From Spirulina subsalsa FACHB-351 (GTDB lineage: Bacteria; Cyanobacteriota; Cyanobacteriia; Cyanobacteriales; Spirulinaceae), in NCBI RefSeq assembly GCF_026130165.1, contig NZ_JAIHOM010000039.1, forward strand, positions 1-41,576: 41,576 nucleotides of DNA, given 5' to 3'. The notes beneath the pieces are model-generated. The model did not search any database. It was not told the origin of the DNA and saw only the letters and a program-made list of their open reading frames with translations. Positions 7,991-29,600 of this stretch are shown piece after piece (position 1 is the stretch's first letter; every line of letters starts with the position of its first letter). The position numbers and the translations under genes were made by a program.

Positions 7991-8986
7991 ATGAACCCAG
8001 TGCAAGGGAAAATCCGAGTCGGCGTTTTAGGATTTGGAGGATTAGGGCAAGCAGCCGCTACAATCTTAGCCCAGAAACAAGAAATGGAATGGGTGGCGGT
8101 TGCCGACCACAAAGGCTATGCTTACAATCCGGCAGGTTTAGACCCCCAAGCCTGTCGTGCCGTCTATCAAAGCCAAGGCACTGTAGGCTATTTAGAACCT
8201 TATGGCACTCTCAGCCACCAGAGTATTCAAGATTTACTGGAAAAGGCCGAAGTGGATGGTTATTTCTTAGCGTTACCCAATTTACCCAACACATTTATGG
8301 CTTCAGTCGCCCAGCAGTTTATTCAATCGGGGTGGCGAGGGGTGTTAGTCGATGCGCTCAAACGCACCAGCGCGGTGGAACAACTCCTCACGCTACGGGA
8401 AGATTTAAAAGGGGCAGGAATCACCTATTTAACGGGCTGTGGCGCTACTCCGGGTTTATTAACGGCAGCCGCGACCTTAGCCGCCCAAAGTTATAGCGAA
8501 ATCCACAGCGTTAAAATTACCTTTGGGGTAGGGATTGCCAACTGGGAGGCTTACCGGGCCACGATTCGGGAAGATATTGCCCATTTACCGGGGTATAGTG
8601 TGGAGAAAGCCCAGGCTATGAGTGATCAAGAGGTGGCGGAGTTGTTGGACCAAACCAATGGCATTCTCGCCTTAGAGAATATGGAACACGCCGATGATAT
8701 TATGTTGGAGTTGGCGGGAATTTGCGATCGCCATCAAGTCACTGTGGGCGGTGTAGTCGATACCCGCAACCCCAAAAAACCCCTAAGTACCAATGTTCAG
8801 GTAACAGGGCGCACCTTTGAGGGCAAAATCTCCACCCATACCTTTACACTGGGAGATGAAACTAGCATGGCAGCCAATGTCTGCGGCCCCGCCTTTGGTT
8901 ATCTCAAGGCAGGGATTAAGTTCCATCGTCAGGGTTTCTATGGTTTACTCACAGCAGCTGATCTCATGCCTCAGTTTGTGCGTTAA
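7991..8986 (+). CDS. Saccharopine dehydrogenase-like oxidoreductase
   Basis: This NAD(P)-binding Rossmann protein is 331 residues from the chosen start. The dinucleotide loop [13 protein letters not shown] is near the N-terminus and [19 protein letters not shown] mid-protein is typical of saccharopine dehydrogenase-like proteins annotated in cyanobacteria. The substrate is unknown; it is shorter than lysine-pathway saccharopine dehydrogenases. An ATG at 7976 is in frame, but GGAG at 7978-7981 lies 9 bases before the ATG at 7991, which favours the shorter protein. No pathway genes adjoin it. Confidence 0.8.
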
Positions 8987-9004
8987 TCAGTCACAGATAT
9001 AACC

Positions 9005-9095
9005 GTAGGGTGCGTCAGGCATAAAGTCACTTCTCCTAAACCAAAGTCATGGGGTCTGACCCGCCCTACAAACTGATTACTGATTACTGATTACT
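9005..9095. repeat. Imperfect inverted repeat followed by (CTGATTA)3
   Basis: GTAGGGTGCGTCAGG (9005-9019) and TCTGACCCGCCCTAC (9055-9069) are inverted repeats matching at 12 of 15 positions. Straight after, CTGATTA is repeated three times (9073-9093), a short tandem heptamer of the STRR kind known from cyanobacteria. Together these fill most of the gap between two plus-strand genes. Confidence 0.6.
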
Positions 9096-9898: not shown

Positions 9899-11668
9899 TC
9901 AAACTTCTAAGGGGTGTTTCTGACTAGCTAACTTCGCCAAGGCAAAACACAACAAGGCATTAAGGCCTAAAAAGCCTTGAGCCAACAAACCGGCCCCCAA
10001 TCCCCACACTTGAGGATTGACAAACATACTCACCGCTAAACAGGAGGCCACCCCTAACGCACTGCCAATGGCGAACCATTTCCATTGAGGATGACCGAGG
10101 AATAAGGTAATTAAAATCCCCGGAATCAAGACACTAGCAAACAAGGGATTGAGCATGGTTCCCCCTTGAATCGCTGTTCCTAACTCAGGAATCGAACTCC
10201 CTAACACCCGGAAGGGGGCTTGAGGTAGGTCAAAGACGTAGAAACCGCGCAGGAAGAATAACCCTGAACTCCCAGCAATCAGTCCTCCGGTTAAGGACCA
10301 ACTCCAAGCAAAGGGGAAATAGTTGCGTAACAGGAAGGCCAAGAGATAAGACCCAATGACCATGGCAATTTTTGGCAGCAGGGCAACGGCACCGCCATCA
10401 ATCCAGAAGCGGGGGTTTAAGTAGCCGTTTTCTCGCAACCATCGGAAGAAGTCTTTAAAGGTAATTTGTCCTTTCGCCGCTAGTTGGACGGCTTTTCCGG
10501 CGTTGAGTTGTCCGGCTCCATAGTGATTAAAGGGGTCTTCTTCAACTTTTTGGGCGGACTCTTGCAGGATGCTGAATACTTCGGCTGGGTCACTGACTCC
10601 GGTGGCTTTGATTAAGGCCGCTACTCCAGCAACGTGGGGAGCGGCCATACTGGTGCCTTGATATTCAGCAAAGATGGCCTGATTGGTGCGAGGGTCGATG
10701 GTGTTTTGTAGAATTTTGCCGTTTTCACTGCCTCCGGGGGCGGCAATGTCTACTCCTGCACCAAAGTTAGAGTAAGGGGCTTTCAGACCCGCAGAATCAA
10801 GGGCAGAGACGCTAATCACATGGGGATAGCGGGCGGGATAGGAGGCGGAATTGCGACTTTCGTTTCCGGCGGCGGCGATGATGACTACACCTTTGTTATA
10901 GGCGTAGTTGACGGCATCTTGCATGAGTTTACTTTCTCCGGGACCGCCTAAACTCATGTTAATCACATCTGCCCCGTGGTCGGCGGCGAAGCGGATGCCT
11001 TCGGCGATGTCGGCGACGGTGCCACCCCCTTGGGCGCTGAGGACTTTAATGGGCATGATTTTGGCTTCGTAGGCGATGCCTGCTACGCCGTAGTTATTGT
11101 TGGTGGATTGGGCAATGGTTCCAGCAACGTGGGTGCCGTGTCCTACGTCGTCGGTGGCTTCAACGCGCTTGTTTACGAAGTCGTAGCCTTGGACGAATTT
11201 GGTGTCTTTTAGGTCGGGAACTTGGGTGACTCCGGTATCAATGACGGCGACGGTGACTCCTTTGCCTTTAGTTTCGGCCCAGGCTGTTTCTAGGTTGATG
11301 GCGCGGAAGTTCCACTGTTTGGCATAGTCGGGGTCGTTGGGAGTGAAAAAGCTGTGATAAATGTAGTTGGGTTCGATATATTCGGTGCTTTCTTGAATCC
11401 CTGCTTCTTTGAGGGTGGCGACGGTTTCTTTGTCGCCTTTGAGGATGTAAATGCGATCGCCCTTGGAAAACTCGCTGTTGAATTCTGGGGTTAGGTTATA
11501 TTGTTTTGCGATCGCCTTGACCTGTTGTTCAACTTGTTCTTGGGGAATATCATTCCGGAAGTTTAAGATCAGGGAATCATATTCCCCCTGATTAGCTAAA
11601 CCTTTAAACTGGGAGAGGGCAAACCCTAACCCAAGAATAAATAAGCAACATAGTAGAAAGTTTTTCAT
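9899..11668 (-). CDS. S8 subtilisin-like protease with membrane C-terminus
   Basis: This 589-residue serine peptidase has the full catalytic triad: D144 in AVIDTGV, H177 in GHGTHVAG and S340 in GTSMAAPHVAG, plus the oxyanion Asn region AAAGNES near 267-272. An N-terminal signal/anchor (residues 1-20) and a propeptide-like domain (about 30-100) precede the catalytic domain (about 115-395). Unusually, about 190 residues follow with four or five hydrophobic segments (about 428-448, 458-475, 508-526, 530-550, 557-580), so the protease is probably tethered with its catalytic part outside the cytoplasm. Substrate unknown. It is convergent with the methyltransferase gene. Confidence 0.92.
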   Translation of the reverse strand: MKNFLLCCLFILGLGFALSQFKGLANQGEYDSLILNFRNDIPQEQVEQQVKAIAKQYNLTPEFNSEFSKGDRIYILKGDKETVATLKEAGIQESTEYIEPNYIYHSFFTPNDPDYAKQWNFRAINLETAWAETKGKGVTVAVIDTGVTQVPDLKDTKFVQGYDFVNKRVEATDDVGHGTHVAGTIAQSTNNNYGVAGIAYEAKIMPIKVLSAQGGGTVADIAEGIRFAADHGADVINMSLGGPGESKLMQDAVNYAYNKGVVIIAAAGNESRNSASYPARYPHVISVSALDSAGLKAPYSNFGAGVDIAAPGGSENGKILQNTIDPRTNQAIFAEYQGTSMAAPHVAGVAALIKATGVSDPAEVFSILQESAQKVEEDPFNHYGAGQLNAGKAVQLAAKGQITFKDFFRWLRENGYLNPRFWIDGGAVALLPKIAMVIGSYLLAFLLRNYFPFAWSWSLTGGLIAGSSGLFFLRGFYVFDLPQAPFRVLGSSIPELGTAIQGGTMLNPLFASVLIPGILITLFLGHPQWKWFAIGSALGVASCLAVSMFVNPQVWGLGAGLLAQGFLGLNALLCFALAKLASQKHPLEV

Positions 11669-18834: not shown

Positions 18835-20379
18835 CTAAAGGGAAATCTCTGAAGCCGGGAGAGGTTGACAGAATAGGTAGCCCTGCCCAAATTCACAGCC
18901 TAGTTCTTGCAAATATTGTAATTGTTCTCGCGTTTCAATGCCCTCAGCGACCACAGCTAAACCCAGTTGATGACTCAACGCAATAATAGTTTGCACCATC
19001 TGATAATTGCGGTTGCCGGGTTGCATTTGGTTGACAAAAGAACGATCGATTTTCAGGGTGTCAATGGGGAAACGGTGCAAGTAGCCTAAAGAAGAGTACC
19101 CAGTCCCGAAATCATCTAAGCTGATCTGGATTTGTCGCGATCGCAATTCCTCAGTCAGCGCGATCGCCATTGTTGTATTCTCCATCAAAGCACTTTCGGT
19201 AATTTCCAACTTCAGATCCCAAGGATTCACCCCAGTTTTCGCCAGAACATTCTCCACATCCGCCAACAACGTAGCACTCCCAAACTGACGCACCGAAAGA
19301 TTCACACTCATTATCAAATCTGAATGCCCCTGTTGATGCCACTCCTGGAGTTGTTGACAAGCTTGTTCTAACACCACTAAACCCACCTGCACCACCAAAC
19401 CCGTTTCCTCCAGACAAGGGATAAACTCCCCCGGTGACACCAATCCTCGTTCAGGGTGTCGCCAACGCACCAAAGCTTCAAACCCCACAATCTCCTGAGT
19501 GGTGAGCCGAATAATGGGTTGATAATAAGTGATAAACTCCTGCCCTTCTAAAGCGCGTTGTAAGTCCGTTTCTAGTGTTAACCGTTTTAGCGTCGCTGCC
19601 TTCATTTCACGGTTAAAGATTTGAGAACACCCCTTACCCCGGAGTTTCGCCTTATACATTGCCATATCCGCCGCTTGTAAGAGGGCTTCTCCACTCGTGC
19701 CGACTTCCTCTTCTAGAGCAAGTCCCAGACAAACCGACATGAAAATATCACAGTTGGCCACCTGAAAAGGACTCAGAAACCCCGCCATCACCTGATCAAT
19801 CCAAGGGATTAACCCATCAGCATTGGGAACATGATGGAGCAAAAAGCAAAACTCATCCTCCCCCACCCGGCACAGCAAATCCCCCGGGCGTAGATACTGT
19901 TTGAGGCGTTGGGCGATGGACTGAAGCAATTCATTTCCTACCCCATAGCCAAAAGCACCATTGACTAACTTGAATTGATCACAGTCTAAATAGGCGATCG
20001 CACGATTCCCCCCAGAATCGAAAGTCTTTGCCAATCTATCCAGTAAGTAGACCCGACTCCCTAACTGGGTCAAACTATCTACATTGAGCAAATTTTCTAA
20101 CTGGGCTGTGCGTTCTACAACCATTGCCTCCAGTTGAGTATTAAACACCGCTAACTGTTGATATTGTTGGTGAATTCTCAACATCGAACGAACCCGCGCC
20201 ATTAGTTCCAACCGACTTAGAGGTTTGGCAATAAAATCATCCGCCCCCGCCGCTAAACATTCAGCGAGAGTGTCTTTGGAGGACAAAGCCGTGACCATAA
20301 TAATCGGAGTTCTTGCCCATTCTGGCATCTCTTTAATGCGTTTACAAACCTCGATCCCATCTAGAACAGGCATCATCAC
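18835..20379 (-). CDS. GGDEF-EAL protein with truncated receiver domain (3' part of a broken gene)
   Basis: From a GTG at 20379 this 514-residue frame has the second half of a receiver domain (1-66, with AKP at 51-53), a short coiled coil (68-96), a GGDEF domain (about 98-255) whose signature is GEDEF (173-177) rather than GG(D/E)EF, and an EAL domain (about 262-510). The EAL domain keeps E301 in GFEAL, NLSVRQF, EITES, DDFGTGYSSLGYL, KIDRSF and EGIET, so it should hydrolyse c-di-GMP; the cyclase half is likely inactive. The receiver Asp lies just before the start, in a frame that continues upstream into the next fragment. Confidence 0.85.
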   Translation of the reverse strand: MMMPVLDGIEVCKRIKEMPEWARTPIIMVTALSSKDTLAECLAAGADDFIAKPLSRLELMARVRSMLRIHQQYQQLAVFNTQLEAMVVERTAQLENLLNVDSLTQLGSRVYLLDRLAKTFDSGGNRAIAYLDCDQFKLVNGAFGYGVGNELLQSIAQRLKQYLRPGDLLCRVGEDEFCFLLHHVPNADGLIPWIDQVMAGFLSPFQVANCDIFMSVCLGLALEEEVGTSGEALLQAADMAMYKAKLRGKGCSQIFNREMKAATLKRLTLETDLQRALEGQEFITYYQPIIRLTTQEIVGFEALVRWRHPERGLVSPGEFIPCLEETGLVVQVGLVVLEQACQQLQEWHQQGHSDLIMSVNLSVRQFGSATLLADVENVLAKTGVNPWDLKLEITESALMENTTMAIALTEELRSRQIQISLDDFGTGYSSLGYLHRFPIDTLKIDRSFVNQMQPGNRNYQMVQTIIALSHQLGLAVVAEGIETREQLQYLQELGCEFGQGYLFCQPLPASEISL

Positions 20380-20390
20380 ATCCAGTAAAA

Positions 20391-20819
20391 TTAAATCCGG
20401 TTGGATGATGGGCAGAATGGCAATGGCCTCTGTGCCATTGGCGGCATAGTGTAAGTCATAGAATGAACACGAGCGCGTAATTCTAACGCATTAATCGGTT
20501 TACCCATAAAGTCATCTGCACCCGCGGCCAAGCATTCGGCGAGACTTTCCTTAGAAGATAAAGCTGTAACCATAATGATGGGTGTTGTTGCCCATTCTGG
20601 CATCGCTTTGATACGACGACAGACTTCAAGTCCATTCATAACAGGCATCATCACATCCAGTAAAATTAAATCGGGCTGCATGATTGGAAGAACTGAAATC
20701 GCATCTTCTCCACTCGCCGAATAGTATAACTCATAGTCTTGATTACTTAATAGAGTCTCAATGACATCAAAGTTGTCCGGTTCATCATCAACAACTAATA
20801 ATTTTGAGAAATTAATCAT
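20391..20819 (-). pseudogene. Receiver domain fragment (5' part of REC-REC-GGDEF-EAL gene)
   Basis: Residues 1-120 form a complete CheY-like receiver: D11/D12, phospho-acceptor D55 and K107. After S120 the frame leaves the family and ends 22 residues later. Reading the same DNA in the next frame gives YDLHYAANGTEAIAIL...LILLDVMMPV, which is the missing first half of the receiver carried by the downstream GGDEF-EAL frame. So an out-of-frame loss has removed the linker and the beginning of a second receiver and split one gene into two. The first receiver could still be made as a stand-alone protein. Confidence 0.8.
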
Positions 20820-20990
20820 GATTTTTACGGTTGGAATAACTTAAATATTCAGGCTATTGAATTAAGATCAATACTTAACTTAACAATCCATTAGCACCCA
20901 TGATTAAAGAGAAAATTATTTCAGGATCTATTCTACAACGAATTTTAAGGCTATTACAAGAATATTGTTTAAGAATATTTGTTTGCCCCC

Positions 20991-23900
20991 CTATTCCCCT
21001 TGGGTAAGCGGGGGAGTTAATAACTGCTGAATGGTCATGGTTAACTGTTTTAATTTCACGGGCTTACTCAAGTATTCATTCGCCCCTGCTTGTAAACAGC
21101 GATCGCGATCAATGTCCATCGCCAACGCCGTTAAAGCAATGATAGGAGTTCTAGCCAACTCAGGAATCTCCCGAATCCGTTTCATGGCCTCTAGTCCATC
21201 CATGCCTGGCATTTGAATATCCATTAAGATCAAATCAGGAGATAGAGCCACAGCCTGACTAATTGCCTCCTGACCATTTTTCGCCACTTCAATTCGATAA
21301 TCTTTCGCCATTAAATAGTTAGAAATTGTGCTGATATTGGCTTCATTATCTTCAGCTAACAACAGCAGAGGAGAAGATTCGCCCGGTGATTTGATTGGCA
21401 GATCATTGGTTTGTACCCCCAGATTAGCAGGGTGTTGTTCGGGAATCCTCTGGGCCGCTTCATAGGGCAGATCAATCATAAAACAACTCCCTACACCCTC
21501 TTCACTGGTTAACCCCACCTGTCCGCCATGAAGTTCAACAATCCGTTTAGTGAGAGCTAAACCTAAACCTGTGCCTTGATATTGGCGATTGAGGGCGCTA
21601 TCAATTTGCATAAAGGGTTGAAACAACTTTTTGATATTTTTGGGGCTAATCCCAATGCCCGTGTCAATGACTGCAAATCGGAGGGAGTGGGTTCTTCTCC
21701 CGGACTCAGAAGGGGGGATTGTGGTAACTTTCAACACGATGCGCCCCCACTCAGGGGTAAACTTCACCGCATTATTCAACAGATTAATTAAGACTTGACG
21801 GATGCGCCGTTCATCTAGAACAATATCGGGCAAATTTAAGGGCAGATCAACCGAGAGTTGAATTCGTTTTTTCAGGGCTTGCTGTTTGATGAAGGAGAGA
21901 CTCGATTGACACAGAGGGGCGATCGCCGTCGAGGAACAATCTAACTCCACCTGACCCGATTCTATCTTAGCTACATCCAAAATATCATTAATCAACTCTA
22001 GTAGGTGAGAGGCGCTCCGTTCCACCGTTTGCAGGGCTTTCAGTTGTCCGTCATTGAGGGGGCCGAAAATTTCCTCTTGTAGCCCTTCCGTCATGCCCAA
22101 GATCGCATTGAGGGGGGTGCGGAGTTCATGACTCATATTAGCCAGAAACTCATCCTTGAGACGGGTAGCGCGGATCAGTTCTTCGTTAGTTGCTTGCAGT
22201 TGGGCTTGGGCTATTTTGCGATCGGTGATATCTTCAGCAATGCCAGCCACCCGATAGATCTGACCTTGGGCATTAGGGATGGGGAAAGCGCGATCGCGAA
22301 TCCAGCGAATTTCCCCATCGGGGCGCACAATCCGATATTCCTCATCATATTCCCCTTTGATTTGTTTAGGAATCGCTGCCATAATACCAGCACGATCCTC
22401 CGGGTGAATCGCCTCCACCCAAGCATGAGGCGAAATATAAAGTTCATCTGACGTGCGGCCCCAGATGCGACTATAAGCTGGGCTGACATAGACTCTCTCC
22501 GTGCGTTCGAGTTCAATAATCCAAAAAACCGCATCAATCCCCTGTACCAATTGTCGGAATTTTTCCTCACTTTCCTGGAGAGCATTTTCTGCTCGTTTGC
22601 GATCGGTAATATCCTGAAAAGTTCCCACCACCCCAATAATATGCCCCCTCCAATCCCGCAGAGGCAGCTTATTGATATCCAGCCAATGCAAGTCCCCATC
22701 GGGAAAAATCGCCTGTTGCACAATACCGATCAGGGGAGATCCCGATTCAATCACCTGCTGATCAAGGCGGCGATATCTCAACGCTTCTGCCTCAGTGTAG
22801 AGATCAAAATCGGTTTTCCCCACCACCTGCTCGGGAGAATCAGCCCCCAAAGTTCTGGCGAATTGACCATTACAGCCTTGATAATGGAGTGCGCAATCTT
22901 TCCAGAATACAGCTAGGGGAACCGTATCTAAAACAGTTTGTAAAAACTGTTGAGATGCCCGCAGGTCTTGTTCAGCTCGTTCCCGTTGAACCAGTGCGGC
23001 GTGCTGTTCGCTAATATCCACATTGACCCCCGTCATGGTCAGAGGATGCCCCGCCTCATCCCGCACCACCACCCCATAGATTTTAAGGTGGCGAATCTTG
23101 CCATCAGGTAGGAAAATGCGAAATTCAGTATTGTATTCCCTCCCGGTTTTGAGAACCTTAGCCATATCTTCAGTCAAGCGCCGCAGATCCTCCGGGTGGA
23201 CATATTCCTGCCACTGTTCATAGGTGATCTGGGCATCTAGGGGGAAATGGTAAATTTCTCGCATCTGTTCATCCCAGATCAGCGTGTTGTCCTGCAATTG
23301 CCACGTCCAACACCCCATTGATGCCGATTTTAAAGCTAGGGAGAGACGTTCCGAGAGTTTTTGTAATTGGGCTTCCCGTTTTTGAAGTTCAGCCGTGCGT
23401 TGGGCGACCTTGGTTTCTAGCTCTTGGTTGAGGCGATGGAGTTGCTCCTCTGCCTGCTGGCGTTGACGCAGTGCAGCTTGCTTCTGGGTAATATCCCGCA
23501 CCATGAATAACACCTCATCCTCCCCACTTTTCACCACCCGCACCTCTTCATCCTGACGGCGGTTATTCACCCAGAGGGTTTGCTCATAAACTTGCAATTC
23601 CCCCGTTTCTAGGGCTTGGCGAATGTAGTGAAGCTGGCGTTCTGCCAACTCTGGGGGCAACATGGCCGTTATTGATTTTCCCGTGGGGTCAATCTGGGCG
23701 GGAATTACATCTCCACAACGAGAGGAGGTGACAAAACCTCGATAAACCCCATCAGCCCCCACCCGAAACATTAAATCAGGAATCGCCATCAATACGGCAT
23801 GGTTGCGACGCTCACTCTCCCGCAAGGCTTGCTCGGCTTGGCGACGTTCACGGCGAGTTTGAGCTTCTCGCATTTCCCGGCGCACTGTCTCCGGCAACCG

Positions 23901-24233
23901 GGCTAAATTCCCCTTCATAATGTAGTCGCTGGCTCCGGTTTTCATCATCTCCACGGCCAATTTTTCCCCAATGGTTCCCGACACCACCAAAAAGGGAATA
24001 TCCTGTTGGCTTTCCTTGAGGATTTCTAGGGCGGTGGGAGCATCAAAACCGGGGAGGTTATAATCGGAGACAATCACATCCCAAGGCTGGTGGGGTAGGG
24101 CTTCCCGCAGTGCCTGGGCTGTTTGCACCCGTTCCCAAATCAGATCAAATCCATCCCGTCGCAATACCCGCAGTAATAACTCGGCATCATCATCCGAGTC
24201 TTCAATTAATAAAAGATGCAGTGCTTCCGGCAT
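20991..24233 (-). CDS. Hybrid sensor histidine kinase REC-PAS4-HK-REC
   Basis: This 1080-residue cytosolic protein (no membrane segments) has: receiver 5-120 (D57); PAS 145-250; coiled coil 252-295; PAS 297-412; PAS 425-547; PAS 556-675; HisKA with H702 in FLANMSHELRTPLNAI; HATPase (NLLNNAVKFTPE, DTGIGIS, GTGLGLAL, about 800-925); and a C-terminal receiver 955-1070 (D1005). It starts 2 bases after the stop of the Rcp1-like regulator, so the two are coupled. Its HK-REC end is almost a copy of that in the giant kinase at 26660. Ligands of the PAS domains are unknown. Confidence 0.92.
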   Translation of the reverse strand: MPEALHLLLIEDSDDDAELLLRVLRRDGFDLIWERVQTAQALREALPHQPWDVIVSDYNLPGFDAPTALEILKESQQDIPFLVVSGTIGEKLAVEMMKTGASDYIMKGNLARLPETVRREMREAQTRRERRQAEQALRESERRNHAVLMAIPDLMFRVGADGVYRGFVTSSRCGDVIPAQIDPTGKSITAMLPPELAERQLHYIRQALETGELQVYEQTLWVNNRRQDEEVRVVKSGEDEVLFMVRDITQKQAALRQRQQAEEQLHRLNQELETKVAQRTAELQKREAQLQKLSERLSLALKSASMGCWTWQLQDNTLIWDEQMREIYHFPLDAQITYEQWQEYVHPEDLRRLTEDMAKVLKTGREYNTEFRIFLPDGKIRHLKIYGVVVRDEAGHPLTMTGVNVDISEQHAALVQRERAEQDLRASQQFLQTVLDTVPLAVFWKDCALHYQGCNGQFARTLGADSPEQVVGKTDFDLYTEAEALRYRRLDQQVIESGSPLIGIVQQAIFPDGDLHWLDINKLPLRDWRGHIIGVVGTFQDITDRKRAENALQESEEKFRQLVQGIDAVFWIIELERTERVYVSPAYSRIWGRTSDELYISPHAWVEAIHPEDRAGIMAAIPKQIKGEYDEEYRIVRPDGEIRWIRDRAFPIPNAQGQIYRVAGIAEDITDRKIAQAQLQATNEELIRATRLKDEFLANMSHELRTPLNAILGMTEGLQEEIFGPLNDGQLKALQTVERSASHLLELINDILDVAKIESGQVELDCSSTAIAPLCQSSLSFIKQQALKKRIQLSVDLPLNLPDIVLDERRIRQVLINLLNNAVKFTPEWGRIVLKVTTIPPSESGRRTHSLRFAVIDTGIGISPKNIKKLFQPFMQIDSALNRQYQGTGLGLALTKRIVELHGGQVGLTSEEGVGSCFMIDLPYEAAQRIPEQHPANLGVQTNDLPIKSPGESSPLLLLAEDNEANISTISNYLMAKDYRIEVAKNGQEAISQAVALSPDLILMDIQMPGMDGLEAMKRIREIPELARTPIIALTALAMDIDRDRCLQAGANEYLSKPVKLKQLTMTIQQLLTPPLTQGE

Positions 24234-24235
24234 AA

Positions 24236-24667
24236 TTACTCCCTCGGTTCCTCTGTGGGGATTGGCTCATTGATTAAGGCCCAATACAAACCTAATTGCG
24301 AAACAGCTTGGGCAAATTGCTCAAAATCGACGGGCTTTCGGACGTAACTATTGGCTCCTAAGTTGTAGCTTTCGAGAATATCGGGTTCTTCGCTGGAGGA
24401 CGTTAAAACCACGACGGGTAAGGTTTTAAACCTTGGCTCGCTTCGTAGTCTACGCAAAACATCTAAGCCGCTTATCTTCGGTAGTTTTAGGTCTAATAAC
24501 ACCACCGTTGGCAAGGGATAGGTGCTAAAAATCAAATTTAACGCTTCTTCGCCGTTGCGCGCAATTAAAATCGGGTTGGTGATTTTACTCCGACGGAGCG
24601 ATCGCAAGGTTAAGCGTTCATCATCGGGATTATCTTCAACTAAAATAATGGGACGGGGGGAAACCAT
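24236..24667 (-). CDS. Rcp1-type single-domain response regulator
   Basis: This 143-residue receiver has E11/D12 acid pocket, phospho-acceptor D59 in VVLLDLKLPKISGLDVL, the T/S switch VVVLTSSSEE and lysine in YVRKPVD. The DLKLPKxxGL pattern and extended C-terminus are typical of Rcp1, the partner of cyanobacterial phytochrome Cph1. It lies 50 bases after the PAS kinase gene on the same strand, which is almost certainly its phosphate donor, and 2 bases before the next hybrid kinase. It has no output domain. Confidence 0.93.
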   Translation of the reverse strand: MVSPRPIILVEDNPDDERLTLRSLRRSKITNPILIARNGEEALNLIFSTYPLPTVVLLDLKLPKISGLDVLRRLRSEPRFKTLPVVVLTSSSEEPDILESYNLGANSYVRKPVDFEQFAQAVSQLGLYWALINEPIPTEEPRE

Positions 24668-24717: not shown

Positions 24718-26553
24718 TTAGGGAATCGTAAAATAAAAGGTAGCCCCTTGTTCGATCGCTCCCTCAGCCCAAATTTTTCCCCCATGGCGACGGATGATCC
24801 GTTGTACTGTGGCTAAACCGATGCCTGTACCGGGAAATTCTGCGGTATTGTGGAGCCGTTGGAACACTCCAAAAAGCATTTTGGCGTATTGCATATCAAA
24901 CCCCGCGCCATCATCGCGCACAAAATAAACGGGGGTGGTTTTGCCGGGCATAACCCCCAATTCAATGCGGGCGCTGGGGTGATGGCTGGTGAATTTCCAG
25001 GCATTTTCCAGTAAATTGGTTAAGACGATCGCCATCAAGGTAGGATCGGCGGTTACTTTCAGATCCGGCGCAATGATAAATTCTACGGGTCTTTGGGGAT
25101 CTTGAATTTGCAAATCTTGGCTCAGGGCGCTTGCTAGGGCGCTGAGGTTCACCTGTTGCGGTTTGAGTTCAGAACGCGATACCCGCGACAGAGACAGTAG
25201 ATCATCGATCAGGTGACTCATCCGACTAATGTTATAGCGGATGCGATCGAAATAGTCTTGGGCGATGTCGTCAAATAGCTCCCCATAGTCCTCTAGGAGG
25301 GCTTGACTAAAGCCGTCAATGGCTCGCAGGGGAGCGCGCAGATCATGGGAGACAGAATAGGCAAAGGCTTCCAGTTCTTCGTTGGAGGCGGCTAGTTGCT
25401 GGCTGATTCTCAGCAGGTCAGTTTCGTGGGTTTTGCGCTCGGTAATATCTAAGACAGTACCGACTAAAGCCGTGACCTGGCCTTGGGCATCCATAATGGG
25501 TTCCCCTCGCGCTTGGATGTAGGTATAGGGGCCGTCTTCATGGCAGACGCGACATTCCAAATCGTAGGGTTTTCCGGTGGCGATCGCCTCGGCCACCACC
25601 CGATCATGATAAATCTGATCTTCTGGATGATAGATTTGCAAGAGTTCCTCATAACTCGGCATCCCTAGGGCGATATCGCGCCCCAACAGCCGAAAAACCT
25701 GCTCAGACCAAGTGATTTTACCCGTGGCGACTTCAAACTCCCAACTGCCGAGATGGGCAATCCGTTGGGCGGCATTCAGGTGGGCTTCCCGTTTTTTTAA
25801 GGTCTCTTCCATCTCTTGTTGCTGGGTAAGGTTCCGGGCGACAGCATAGAGGAAAGAGCCGTAGGGTTGGGTGTACCACTCTAGCTGAACATAACGACCA
25901 TCGGCACGGCGATAACGATTCACGAAACCTTCCACCTTTTCTTGTCCCTTCAATTGCTCAATGGCGGCTAGGGTGGCGGCGCGGTCTTCGGGATGGATGA
26001 AATCTAAGAGGATTTGCCCTTCCAGGTCTTTGACCTGATAACCCAAGGTGGTTTCCCAGGCGGGATTGAGGCGGATAAATCGCCCTTGGACATCGGCAAT
26101 GCAAAGCAGATTCAGGGTTAAGGTAAAGAAAGGTTCGAGATTCTTTTTAATATCCCGGTGGGGGGTGAGGAGTGAAAGCCATTTGTCCTGACTGATGACC
26201 CCTTCTAGGTTTCCTTGGTCATCCACAATCAAGACATGGCGCACCCCCTCAGTCAGAAAACATTGACCAATCTGGTCAATATCTTGCCAGTCCGACAGGT
26301 TCAGGGTTGGGGCGGGGCTAATGTCCAAAGTGGCGAGGGGCTGGCGGGTGTCCTGTCCTTGGGCGAATAGTCTCACCAGATCCTCGGCATTCAACAGCCC
26401 AAAGCCCTCCGGTTGGGAGATCACCACACAGCAGGAATCTGCCCCACTGATAGCGGCGATCGCCTCTTGGAGGCTATCCTCTAAGGTAAGTTGGGGGGGA
26501 GACGGGATAATGATAGTTTCCAGGTCTGCTAGGGTGGGTACACCAAATGGCAT
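24718..26553 (-). CDS. CBS/PAS sensor histidine kinase, Cph1-like kinase module
   Basis: This 611-residue protein has a degenerate CBS-pair-like region (about 12-130, with RHVLIVDDQGNLEGVIS), PAS 138-245, PAS 258-373, a HisKA with H403 in AFAYSVSHDLRAPLRAIDGF, and a HATPase (NLLENAWKFT, RDDGAGFDM, GTGIGLATV). The kinase module is of the phytochrome-like type that signals to Rcp1-like receivers, and such a receiver is the next gene. No transmembrane segment is seen. CBS pairs in other proteins bind adenosyl nucleotides, so an energy-sensing role is possible but unproven. Confidence 0.9.
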   Translation of the reverse strand: MPFGVPTLADLETIIIPSPPQLTLEDSLQEAIAAISGADSCCVVISQPEGFGLLNAEDLVRLFAQGQDTRQPLATLDISPAPTLNLSDWQDIDQIGQCFLTEGVRHVLIVDDQGNLEGVISQDKWLSLLTPHRDIKKNLEPFFTLTLNLLCIADVQGRFIRLNPAWETTLGYQVKDLEGQILLDFIHPEDRAATLAAIEQLKGQEKVEGFVNRYRRADGRYVQLEWYTQPYGSFLYAVARNLTQQQEMEETLKKREAHLNAAQRIAHLGSWEFEVATGKITWSEQVFRLLGRDIALGMPSYEELLQIYHPEDQIYHDRVVAEAIATGKPYDLECRVCHEDGPYTYIQARGEPIMDAQGQVTALVGTVLDITERKTHETDLLRISQQLAASNEELEAFAYSVSHDLRAPLRAIDGFSQALLEDYGELFDDIAQDYFDRIRYNISRMSHLIDDLLSLSRVSRSELKPQQVNLSALASALSQDLQIQDPQRPVEFIIAPDLKVTADPTLMAIVLTNLLENAWKFTSHHPSARIELGVMPGKTTPVYFVRDDGAGFDMQYAKMLFGVFQRLHNTAEFPGTGIGLATVQRIIRRHGGKIWAEGAIEQGATFYFTIP

Positions 26554-26661: not shown

Positions 26662-29600
26662 AGATATTTTCACCCCGCGTAAAATTTAGGATGCCTTGAA
26701 TGGTCATCGTTAATTGTTTTAATTTCACGGGCTTACTCAAGTATTCATTCGCTCCCGCTTGTAAACAGCGATCGCGATCACTGTCCATCGCCAACGCCGT
26801 TAAGACAATGATAGGCGTTGTAGCCAACTTAGGAATCTCCCGAATCCGTTTCATGGCCTCTAGTCCATCCATGCCTGGCATTTGAATATCCATTAAGATC
26901 AAATCAGGAGATAAAGCCACAGCCTGACTAATGGCCTCCTGACCATTTTTCGCCACTTCAATCCGATAACCTTTCGCCATTAAATAACTGGAAATGGTGC
27001 TGATATTCGCTTCATTGTCTTCAGCTAAAAGCAGCAGGGGAGAAGACTGACCCGGTGATTGGATTGCCAGATTATGGGGGGCAAAATTAGACTCGGAGTC
27101 GGTCTGTGGGGAAAAAACCACCGAGGCCTGATAGGGTAAATCAATCATAAAACAACTACCCTTTCCCTCTTCACTCCTGACCCCAACCTGTCCGCTATGA
27201 AGTTCAACAATCCGTTTCGTGAGGGCTAAACCTAAACCTGTGCCTTGATATTGGCGATTGAGGGCGCTGTCAATTTGCACAAAGGGTTGAAACAGTTTGG
27301 TTAGATTTTCCGGGGTGATACCAATACCCGTATCAATGACGGAAAATCGGAGATAGGGGGGGTTGTTCTTTTCTGTAGGTAACGTAACCTCTAAGGTCAC
27401 GCACCCCCCTTCGGGAGTAAATTTAACAGCATTGTTGAGCAGATTAATTAACACCTGACGGATGCGCCGCTCATCCAGCACAATATCGGGCAGGTTTACG
27501 GGCAAATTAACCGAGAGTTGCAGCTGCTTTTTGAGTGCTTGTTGTTTGACAAAGGTGATACTGGATTGACACAAGGGGGCGATGGCTGTTGGCGCACATT
27601 CTAACTCCACCTGCCCGGATTCAATCTTGGCCACATCTAAAATGTCGTTAATCAAGGCCAGTAAATGGGAGCCACTGCGTTCGATGGTGCTTAAGGCTTT
27701 CTGCTGGCCATCGTTGACTGGGCCAAATACACCTTCCTGTAGGCCTTCGGTCATTCCTAATATGGCATTAAGGGGGGTGCGGAGTTCGTGGCTCATATTG
27801 GCCAGAAATTCATCTTTGAGTCGGGTAGCGCGGATCAGTTCTTCATTGCGTTGGGTGAGTTGGGTTTGGGTTTGTTGACGTTCGGTGAGTTCCTCTTGTA
27901 ACTTTTCGAAGAGGTGGGATTGTTGAATGGCGATCGCCAGTTGGTTGGCAATTTGCTGTAAAAGTTCAGCGTCGGACTTTTGCCAAATCCGTTGTTCATG
28001 GCAGGCGTGAATCACTAAGAGACCCCATAGTTTATTCCCTGACTGCGGATCTGTCCAAGAATCTATTTCCCCATTCCCCATTTCTCCATTCCCCATTTCC
28101 CCATTATGGATTTCCTGCAAAATGGGGGCAACAATCTTGGATTGAATCTGTCCCTGGTGAGAATAGTCGAGGAGACAAGGGGTCCAAGGATCATTCATTA
28201 CATCTGGAACAATCCGGGGCTGGCCTTGCCAATAGAACTGGAGGACTTCTGACGACCATTCTTCATCTTCGCAGTTCATTGGCTTGAGACTCGGCAAATC
28301 CTCAGAAACCGCTTCCGCCAGAATGGATGTCCTGCTACGGTCAAAGAGGCGGAAGACAATGACCCGATCCCCTTGCAAAATTTCCCGCACTCGTTGGGTG
28401 GTAATGGCTAAAATTTCTTGTAGGTTTAGGGATTCACGAATCTGTTGCACAATCTGGCCCAGGACTGTGCGCTGTCGAAGTTGCTGGGCAATCATGGCTT
28501 CGGCCTTTTGCCGATGGCGATCCATGCGATAACCTTCAATCAAATTACTACAGGTGGTTAAGAATGGTCCGAGTGTTTCAATGATGCTCTCGTTATAACC
28601 TCCCGGACGATTGGCAATTCCGACCATGCCGATCAGTTCAGGGCCTTTGAAAAAGGGAATCCCTAAAAATGCCTCCAGTGGGGGATGACCTGTGGGGATA
28701 CCCCCTCGACGGGGATCGGTGATGGCATGATTGGCAATGACGGGTTTTCCGGTCAAAATGACCGCACCAAAAAGGGTTTGGAGGTTGCTAAACTCCATCC
28801 CTTTTTCATAATTGTCTTGATAGAATTGCTCTGTGGCGGTATCCCAAGCAATATTGGTAATGCTATGGGTTTGTAAATAGGGAACTCCACGGATTTTGAG
28901 AAAATTTTCCTCCATGTGGGCGATTCCGTCTCCTCGGAAGAGGATCTCGCCAATAAATCCATATTCACTATTGGTCAACTCTAAGAGACCATCTAACAAG
29001 CCTTCAAAAATCCTCAGACGATTGGCGGCAGTGATGAATTGCGCTTGAGCATGGGTAATGGTAGAGAGGAGAGAATTGCTACTAGCTAGGTCGAGTTCTA
29101 CCTGTTTACGGGGGGTAATATCAAATTGAATGGATAAAAATTGAGTGGGTTGACCTTGGGGGTTGAGAAAGGGGATGATGGTTGCATCAACCCAGTAAAT
29201 TTGGCCGTTCTTGGCGCGGTTACAAATTTCGTTGCGCCAGACTTGGCCGTTTAAAATGGTTGTCCAGAGATGGGCAAAAAATTCCGGGGGATGGTGCTGA
29301 GAATTGAGAATCCGAGGAGTTTTGCCTAGGATTTCTGCTTGGCTATAGCCGGAAATGGACTCGAAGCGGTCATTGACGTAGAGAATTTTACCTTTGAGGT
29401 TGGTGGTGACAACAATGGCTGATTGATCAAGGGCAAATTTAAAGGAACTCAGTTCTTGGAGCAGTTTTTGGCGTTCAAGTTCGTTGTTTTTGCGATCGCT
29501 AATATCCGTATGGGTGCCAATAAACCGTAGGGGGTTGCCCGCTCCATCCCATTCTATAATGCGTCCTTGGGCTAAAATCCAGCGATAGGAGCCGTCTTTA

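Follow-up and report, generated by a model that had tools for sequence, protein, structure and literature searches.

What event left a complete receiver (REC) standing in front of a GGDEF-EAL frame that begins within a second receiver is the question raised by a locus of Spirulina subsalsa FACHB-351. The window, by which we mean the whole stretch of 41,576 nucleotides that was analysed, is the entire contig C50 of this genome (G000), a 279-contig draft of 5.26 Mb that is 99.99% complete. The preliminary description of this DNA had taken the arrangement for a single REC-REC-GGDEF-EAL gene, split by an out-of-frame deletion that probably arose by slippage between its two receivers. The relatives retrieved for the window were cyanobacteria; the genus was represented by two genomes, G000 and its sister G001, and 41 other loci were compared, made up of 13 stretches chosen by place and 28 of the at least 79 loci from a genome scan. 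The explanation that best fits the comparison, to which we give a probability of roughly 0.93, is an illegitimate deletion of 1053 bp in this cyanobacterial lineage, which stripped a receiver-kinase gene of its kinase part and beheaded the neighbouring REC-GGDEF-EAL gene, leaving an out-of-frame joint.

The receiver junction in the window

The upstream open-reading frame (20819-20391, minus strand, 142 aa) encodes a receiver that is complete up to ...ELRARVHSM and is followed by about 20 out-of-frame residues to the stop. The Pfam Response_reg profile covers it from position 2 to 110 of 111 with no output domain, the layout of a single-domain response regulator. The GGDEF-EAL frame, offset by 440 nt (2 mod 3) from the receiver frame, is open on the minus strand from about 20487 to 18835, a run of 551 codons free of internal stops, and reads ...YDLHYAANGTEAIAIL...LLDVMMPV before continuing into GGDEF and EAL; its receiver part starts at YDLHYAANG. 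Pfam finds the GGDEF (2-159 of 161) and EAL (2-236 of 236) domains in 18838-20487, with Response_reg matched only from profile position 24 of 111. The two receivers in the window are identical at 205 of 280 nt, in register. Open-reading frames and Pfam agree that the receiver junction is broken out of frame within 20379-20480, as had been described, with the joint at 20457-20461. The features of the region are the following.

18835-20456, minus strand: remnant of the REC-GGDEF-EAL gene, with REC2 lacking its first part, GGDEF (motif GEDEF) and EAL
18835-20379, minus strand: translatable part of the remnant, 514 aa, from the frame's first ATG, GTG or TTG, a GTG directly after the Asp codon
20391-20819, minus strand: orphan receiver frame, 142 aa, formed by REC1 from what was the REC-HisKA-HATPase gene and a brief out-of-frame tail from REC2 DNA
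20457-20461, minus strand: deletion junction, CTATG (common to both arms or the right arm's own), at which 1053 bp of G001 are absent
20991-24233, minus strand: upstream hybrid histidine kinase REC-PAS-HK-REC, 1080 aa, syntenic in G001
24236-24667, minus strand: single-domain receiver, 143 aa, syntenic in G001
24718-26553, minus strand: PAS histidine kinase, 611 aa, syntenic in G001

The two-gene state in the sister genome and other relatives

At the counterpart locus of G001, Pfam domains identify two separate, complete genes, a REC-HisKA-HATPase kinase gene of 392 aa (L048:8654-9832) and, after a spacer of 92 bp, a REC-GGDEF-EAL gene of 596 aa counted from the first ATG (L048:9925-11715). 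The window aligns with this locus in two collinear arms, 26606-20457 with a 92.4% match and 20461-18839 with a 93.2% match; inside the arms there are small gaps only, and they are separated by a single stretch of 1053 bp that is present in G001 and absent from the window. With the missing DNA, HisKA and HATPase have gone entirely, along with the stop codon, the spacer, and the second gene's start and its first ~47 codons; the window's GGDEF-EAL protein matches the G001 protein from residue 48 on. Amino acid identity is 97% between the orphan receiver and REC1 of the G001 kinase gene over the receiver, and 94% between the GGDEF-EAL remnant and G001. The joint is out of frame because the two G001 genes occupy different frames. 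The comparison with a sister genome, proposed in the preliminary description as a check, therefore recovers the intact state, though as two genes: an out-of-frame deletion did join two receiver-encoding frames, and the reported loss of the first ~30 residues of REC2 is right as far as it goes, the true loss being 1053 bp and including the entire histidine kinase part. Judged from the alignment, this is a fusion of two genes out of frame, not the splitting of one. The single-gene ancestor is contradicted both by G001 and by other relatives with adjacent REC-HisKA-HATPase and REC-GGDEF-EAL genes, and no open-reading frame combining two receivers with GGDEF and EAL was present in the 41 loci.

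An open-reading frame with both GGDEF and EAL was found in 36 of the 41 loci (in L152 the sole such frame is less similar and is truncated where the stretch ends). A gene was counted as REC-HK when its kinase part aligned with that of G001 at 37% identity or above across more than 200 positions. By this measure, a same-strand REC-HK lay within 400 bp upstream in seven of the 36 (L048, L049, L050, L051, L053, L075 and L076), in genomes spanning at least three families, and 2.5-4.9 kb upstream in three more (L072, L074 and L093). It was absent at this threshold from the remaining 26, so it is the sister and a minority of the other relatives that support the two-gene layout as ancestral. Since more distant relatives also have this layout, the window state is the loss, and on these comparisons the deletion is derived in the window lineage. 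A full receiver match was wanting in four of the 36 loci: L077 and L082 start near the edge of a contig, in L098 the frame changes on a MAG contig covered 2.4x, and in L094 the receiver was not matched. A complete lone receiver directly before a headless GGDEF-EAL frame was seen in the window genome only and in none of the 41 other loci.

Within the family, a match to the G001 REC-GGDEF-EAL protein at E <= 1e-150 was obtained in 5 of 13 genomes, including G000 and G001, indicating that the module comes and goes. At another locus of the same family (L054, G005:C7, 5749-8468), which is one of the 26 without a REC-HK at the threshold, the same gene pair has been damaged independently by a different lesion: a frame change breaks up the REC-HK, a large share of the ATPase part is gone, and the EAL is cut after ~108 residues.

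Whether the two receivers are old paralogues was put to a tree of 50 receivers, and the answer was mixed. The G001 pair (L048, ~8666-9019 and ~9994-10347; window 20462-20819) groups together (100/97) instead of joining the corresponding receivers from other families, and the pair of L053 does likewise (96/90); this pairing within a locus hints at gene conversion, or at repeated swapping, between adjacent receivers. Arguing against this, the grouping follows the gene in G005, G011 and G012 (100/99 and 100/97); for all of these groupings, the bootstrap had not settled. Elsewhere in the window, the HK-REC ends of two hybrid kinases (21028-22228 and 26696-27888) appear to be ~80% alike in DNA, as seen via cross-matches to G001 only, which suggests a fairly recent duplication or conversion.

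Breakpoints and the cause of the loss

The joint is simple, with collinear flanks, 1053 bp absent and no extra bases. At CTATG (20457-20461), the right arm equals G001 at all bases and the left arm at 4 of 5, the odd base being a silent difference in REC1, so that the breakpoints had 5 bp in common if the ancestor carried the window's base and 1 bp if it carried that of G001. Among 200,000 random pairs of breakpoints in the G001 genes, 1.9% share at least 4 bp and 0.6% at least 5 bp, and microhomology at the joint is plausible on this count. For E. coli, the part of the literature considered here gives ~9 nt for the illegitimate recombination pathway and ~4 nt for MMEJ (PMC3375238), compared with 1 to 5 bp at the window joint; like the E. 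coli illegitimate recombination deletions described there, the window appears to have been joined at little or no homology (PMC3375238).

One breakpoint falls at residue 120 of REC1 and the other at the equivalent of residue 28 in REC2, which places them 275 nt out of register. This bears on two other accounts of the loss, both of which depend on the likeness of the receivers. Slippage or recombination between the receiver repeats, the cause suggested earlier, draws on the similarity of the G001 receivers (90 of 118 residues and 272 of 354 nt identical), but a deletion mediated by repeats in register would have its breakpoints at equivalent positions, and the longest exact in-register repeats, 33 bp in the window and 25 bp in G001, were not used; we consider this origin extremely improbable. 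An assembly or sequencing artefact, in which the genome is intact and the contig has dropped 1053 bp, is very unlikely. Such an error could be invited by a draft in 279 contigs and by two similar receivers sharing the 33-bp exact repeat, but collapse of a repeat would join the copies in register, not 275 nt off with at most 5 bp shared. Both sides of the junction are syntenic with G001, and the missing kinase was found on no other contig. Relocation of the kinase elsewhere in the genome was likewise rejected, as a search of G000 with the missing 1053-bp stretch at E <= 0.001 returned no match beyond 46 bp of receiver. The full-length REC-HK protein matches in G000 are, among those listed, only 27-39% identical.

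The illegitimate deletion that we prefer would thus have been a non-homologous event, with microhomology of at most 5 bp, that took out 1053 bp: the kinase part of the REC-HisKA-HATPase gene together with the spacer and the beginning of the adjoining REC-GGDEF-EAL gene. The leftovers, a lone receiver and a headless GGDEF-EAL frame, would have been joined out of frame in the same step. In kind, this is an ordinary lineage-specific loss, a case of gene decay.

The remnants and the c-di-GMP input

The translation of the orphan REC1 keeps the DD pair, the Asp in LLDVMMP, and the T and K in VTAL...GKP, which we take to be the residues expected of a working receiver; with these in place, the lone receiver may still be produced. 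The GGDEF-EAL remnant is in a different condition. Its frame offers no ATG, GTG or TTG before the GTG at 20379, which comes right after the Asp codon and 11 nt past the end of the upstream frame, and a product from this start would be without the phosphorylation site and about half of the receiver. A complete in-frame receiver with its phospho-acceptor Asp is therefore absent, as the Response_reg match starts at position 24 of 111 in the open frame and at position 50 from the first start. The remnant retains GEDEF, EALVRW, ITESA, DDFGTGYSS, LKIDRSF and AEGIET, presumably the signature motifs of GGDEF and EAL domains. A programmed -1 frameshift joining the two frames was tried as a candidate and rejected, since no slippery heptamer for a -1 shift occurs in frame within the overlap.

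Substitutions gave no signal of pseudogene decay in either direction. Relative to G001, dN/dS was 0.068 over 120 codons of REC1 and 0.132 over 541 codons of the remnant, with values of 0.179, 0.065 and 0.307 for three neighbours. When the 34 amino acid differences from G001 were polarised with nine relatives, 11 were derived in the window, 13 in G001 and 10 were undecided, and otherwise invariant sites had changed once in the window and not at all in G001. With no extra decay in the substitutions, the deletion probably took place recently, or else the remnants remain in use and constrained. Synonymous divergence differs between the two parts, dS in REC1 (0.477) being about twice that in the remnant (0.238). 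The spacer upstream of the orphan receiver, together with the receiver's 5′ end (window 20750-21000), is 20% different from G001 in one 250-bp bin, the bins around it differing by 3-12%. At its C-terminus (window 18835-18870), the EAL remnant is 8 residues short of that in G001 (ASEISL as against ASEIPLDSGFMILP), and EAL C-terminal tails are variable among the relatives compared.

These properties also speak to the possibility that the rearrangement was adaptive, the remnant frames forming a working, translationally coupled pair under selection that consists of a single-domain receiver and an Asp-less GGDEF-EAL protein. The long frame without an internal stop, the close spacing of its GTG to the upstream frame, the kept motifs (GEDEF, EALVRW, DDFGTGYSS and AEGIET) and a window branch without excess amino acid change are what such a pair might show, but a recent deletion explains the same substitution pattern, and the arrangement is confined to one genome, with 0 of 41 other loci sharing it. 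The overlap also has no slippery -1 site, and a start inside the receiver would leave half a domain that is unlikely to fold. We therefore regard selection on a coupled pair as unlikely. That the deletion went as far as making a lone receiver that accepts phosphate and a coupled Asp-less GGDEF-EAL enzyme freed from kinase control is, in our estimate, distinctly unlikely; if true, a regulated c-di-GMP enzyme would have been made constitutive by one chance event.

Under the deletion followed by ordinary decay, the orphan receiver may persist and accept phosphate from neighbouring kinases, and the GGDEF-EAL part would be silent or only weakly made via re-initiation, without the receiver's phosphorylation site. 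Overall, the genome, which has other GGDEF/EAL proteins, would have lost one c-di-GMP input under the control of a kinase. GGDEF-EAL protein matches number at least 27 in G000 and at least 27 in G001 (25 of 163 candidates scored), so losing one of these proteins may be easily tolerated.

Our search of the literature on cyanobacterial c-di-GMP, kinases and recombination listed nothing specific to this locus, and related systems are described in Anabaena sp. PCC 7120. Alr2306, a REC-GGDEF-EAL protein, is reported to be the major c-di-GMP phosphodiesterase, and functional redundancy is suggested among the eight hydrolases of Anabaena (PMC13075795). It shares its domain order with the G001 gene to which the window remnant corresponds (PMC13075795); unlike Alr2306, the window copy has lost its first ~47 codons and, with them, part of the receiver. 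The hybrid histidine kinase CdgK is proposed to act via the receiver of the diguanylate cyclase CdgS, the phosphorylation of which is proposed to raise its activity, and an Asp mutant of CdgS reportedly shows knock-out-like cell-size defects with a modestly lower turnover in vitro (PMC9927289). The CdgK-CdgS pair resembles the ancestral pair in that a histidine kinase controls a c-di-GMP enzyme through a receiver, with CdgS described as having GGDEF and EAL unmentioned in the portion of that report drawn on here (PMC9927289). Set against it, the window is without both the adjacent kinase and the enzyme's Asp.

For annotation, each of the two open-reading frames is best labelled as what remains of a separate gene, rather than both together as a single frameshifted gene. 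For the organism, G000 appears to be without a kinase that is present in its sister G001, and for the family, in which this gene pair has suffered a different lesion in G005, kinase-to-c-di-GMP modules turn over.
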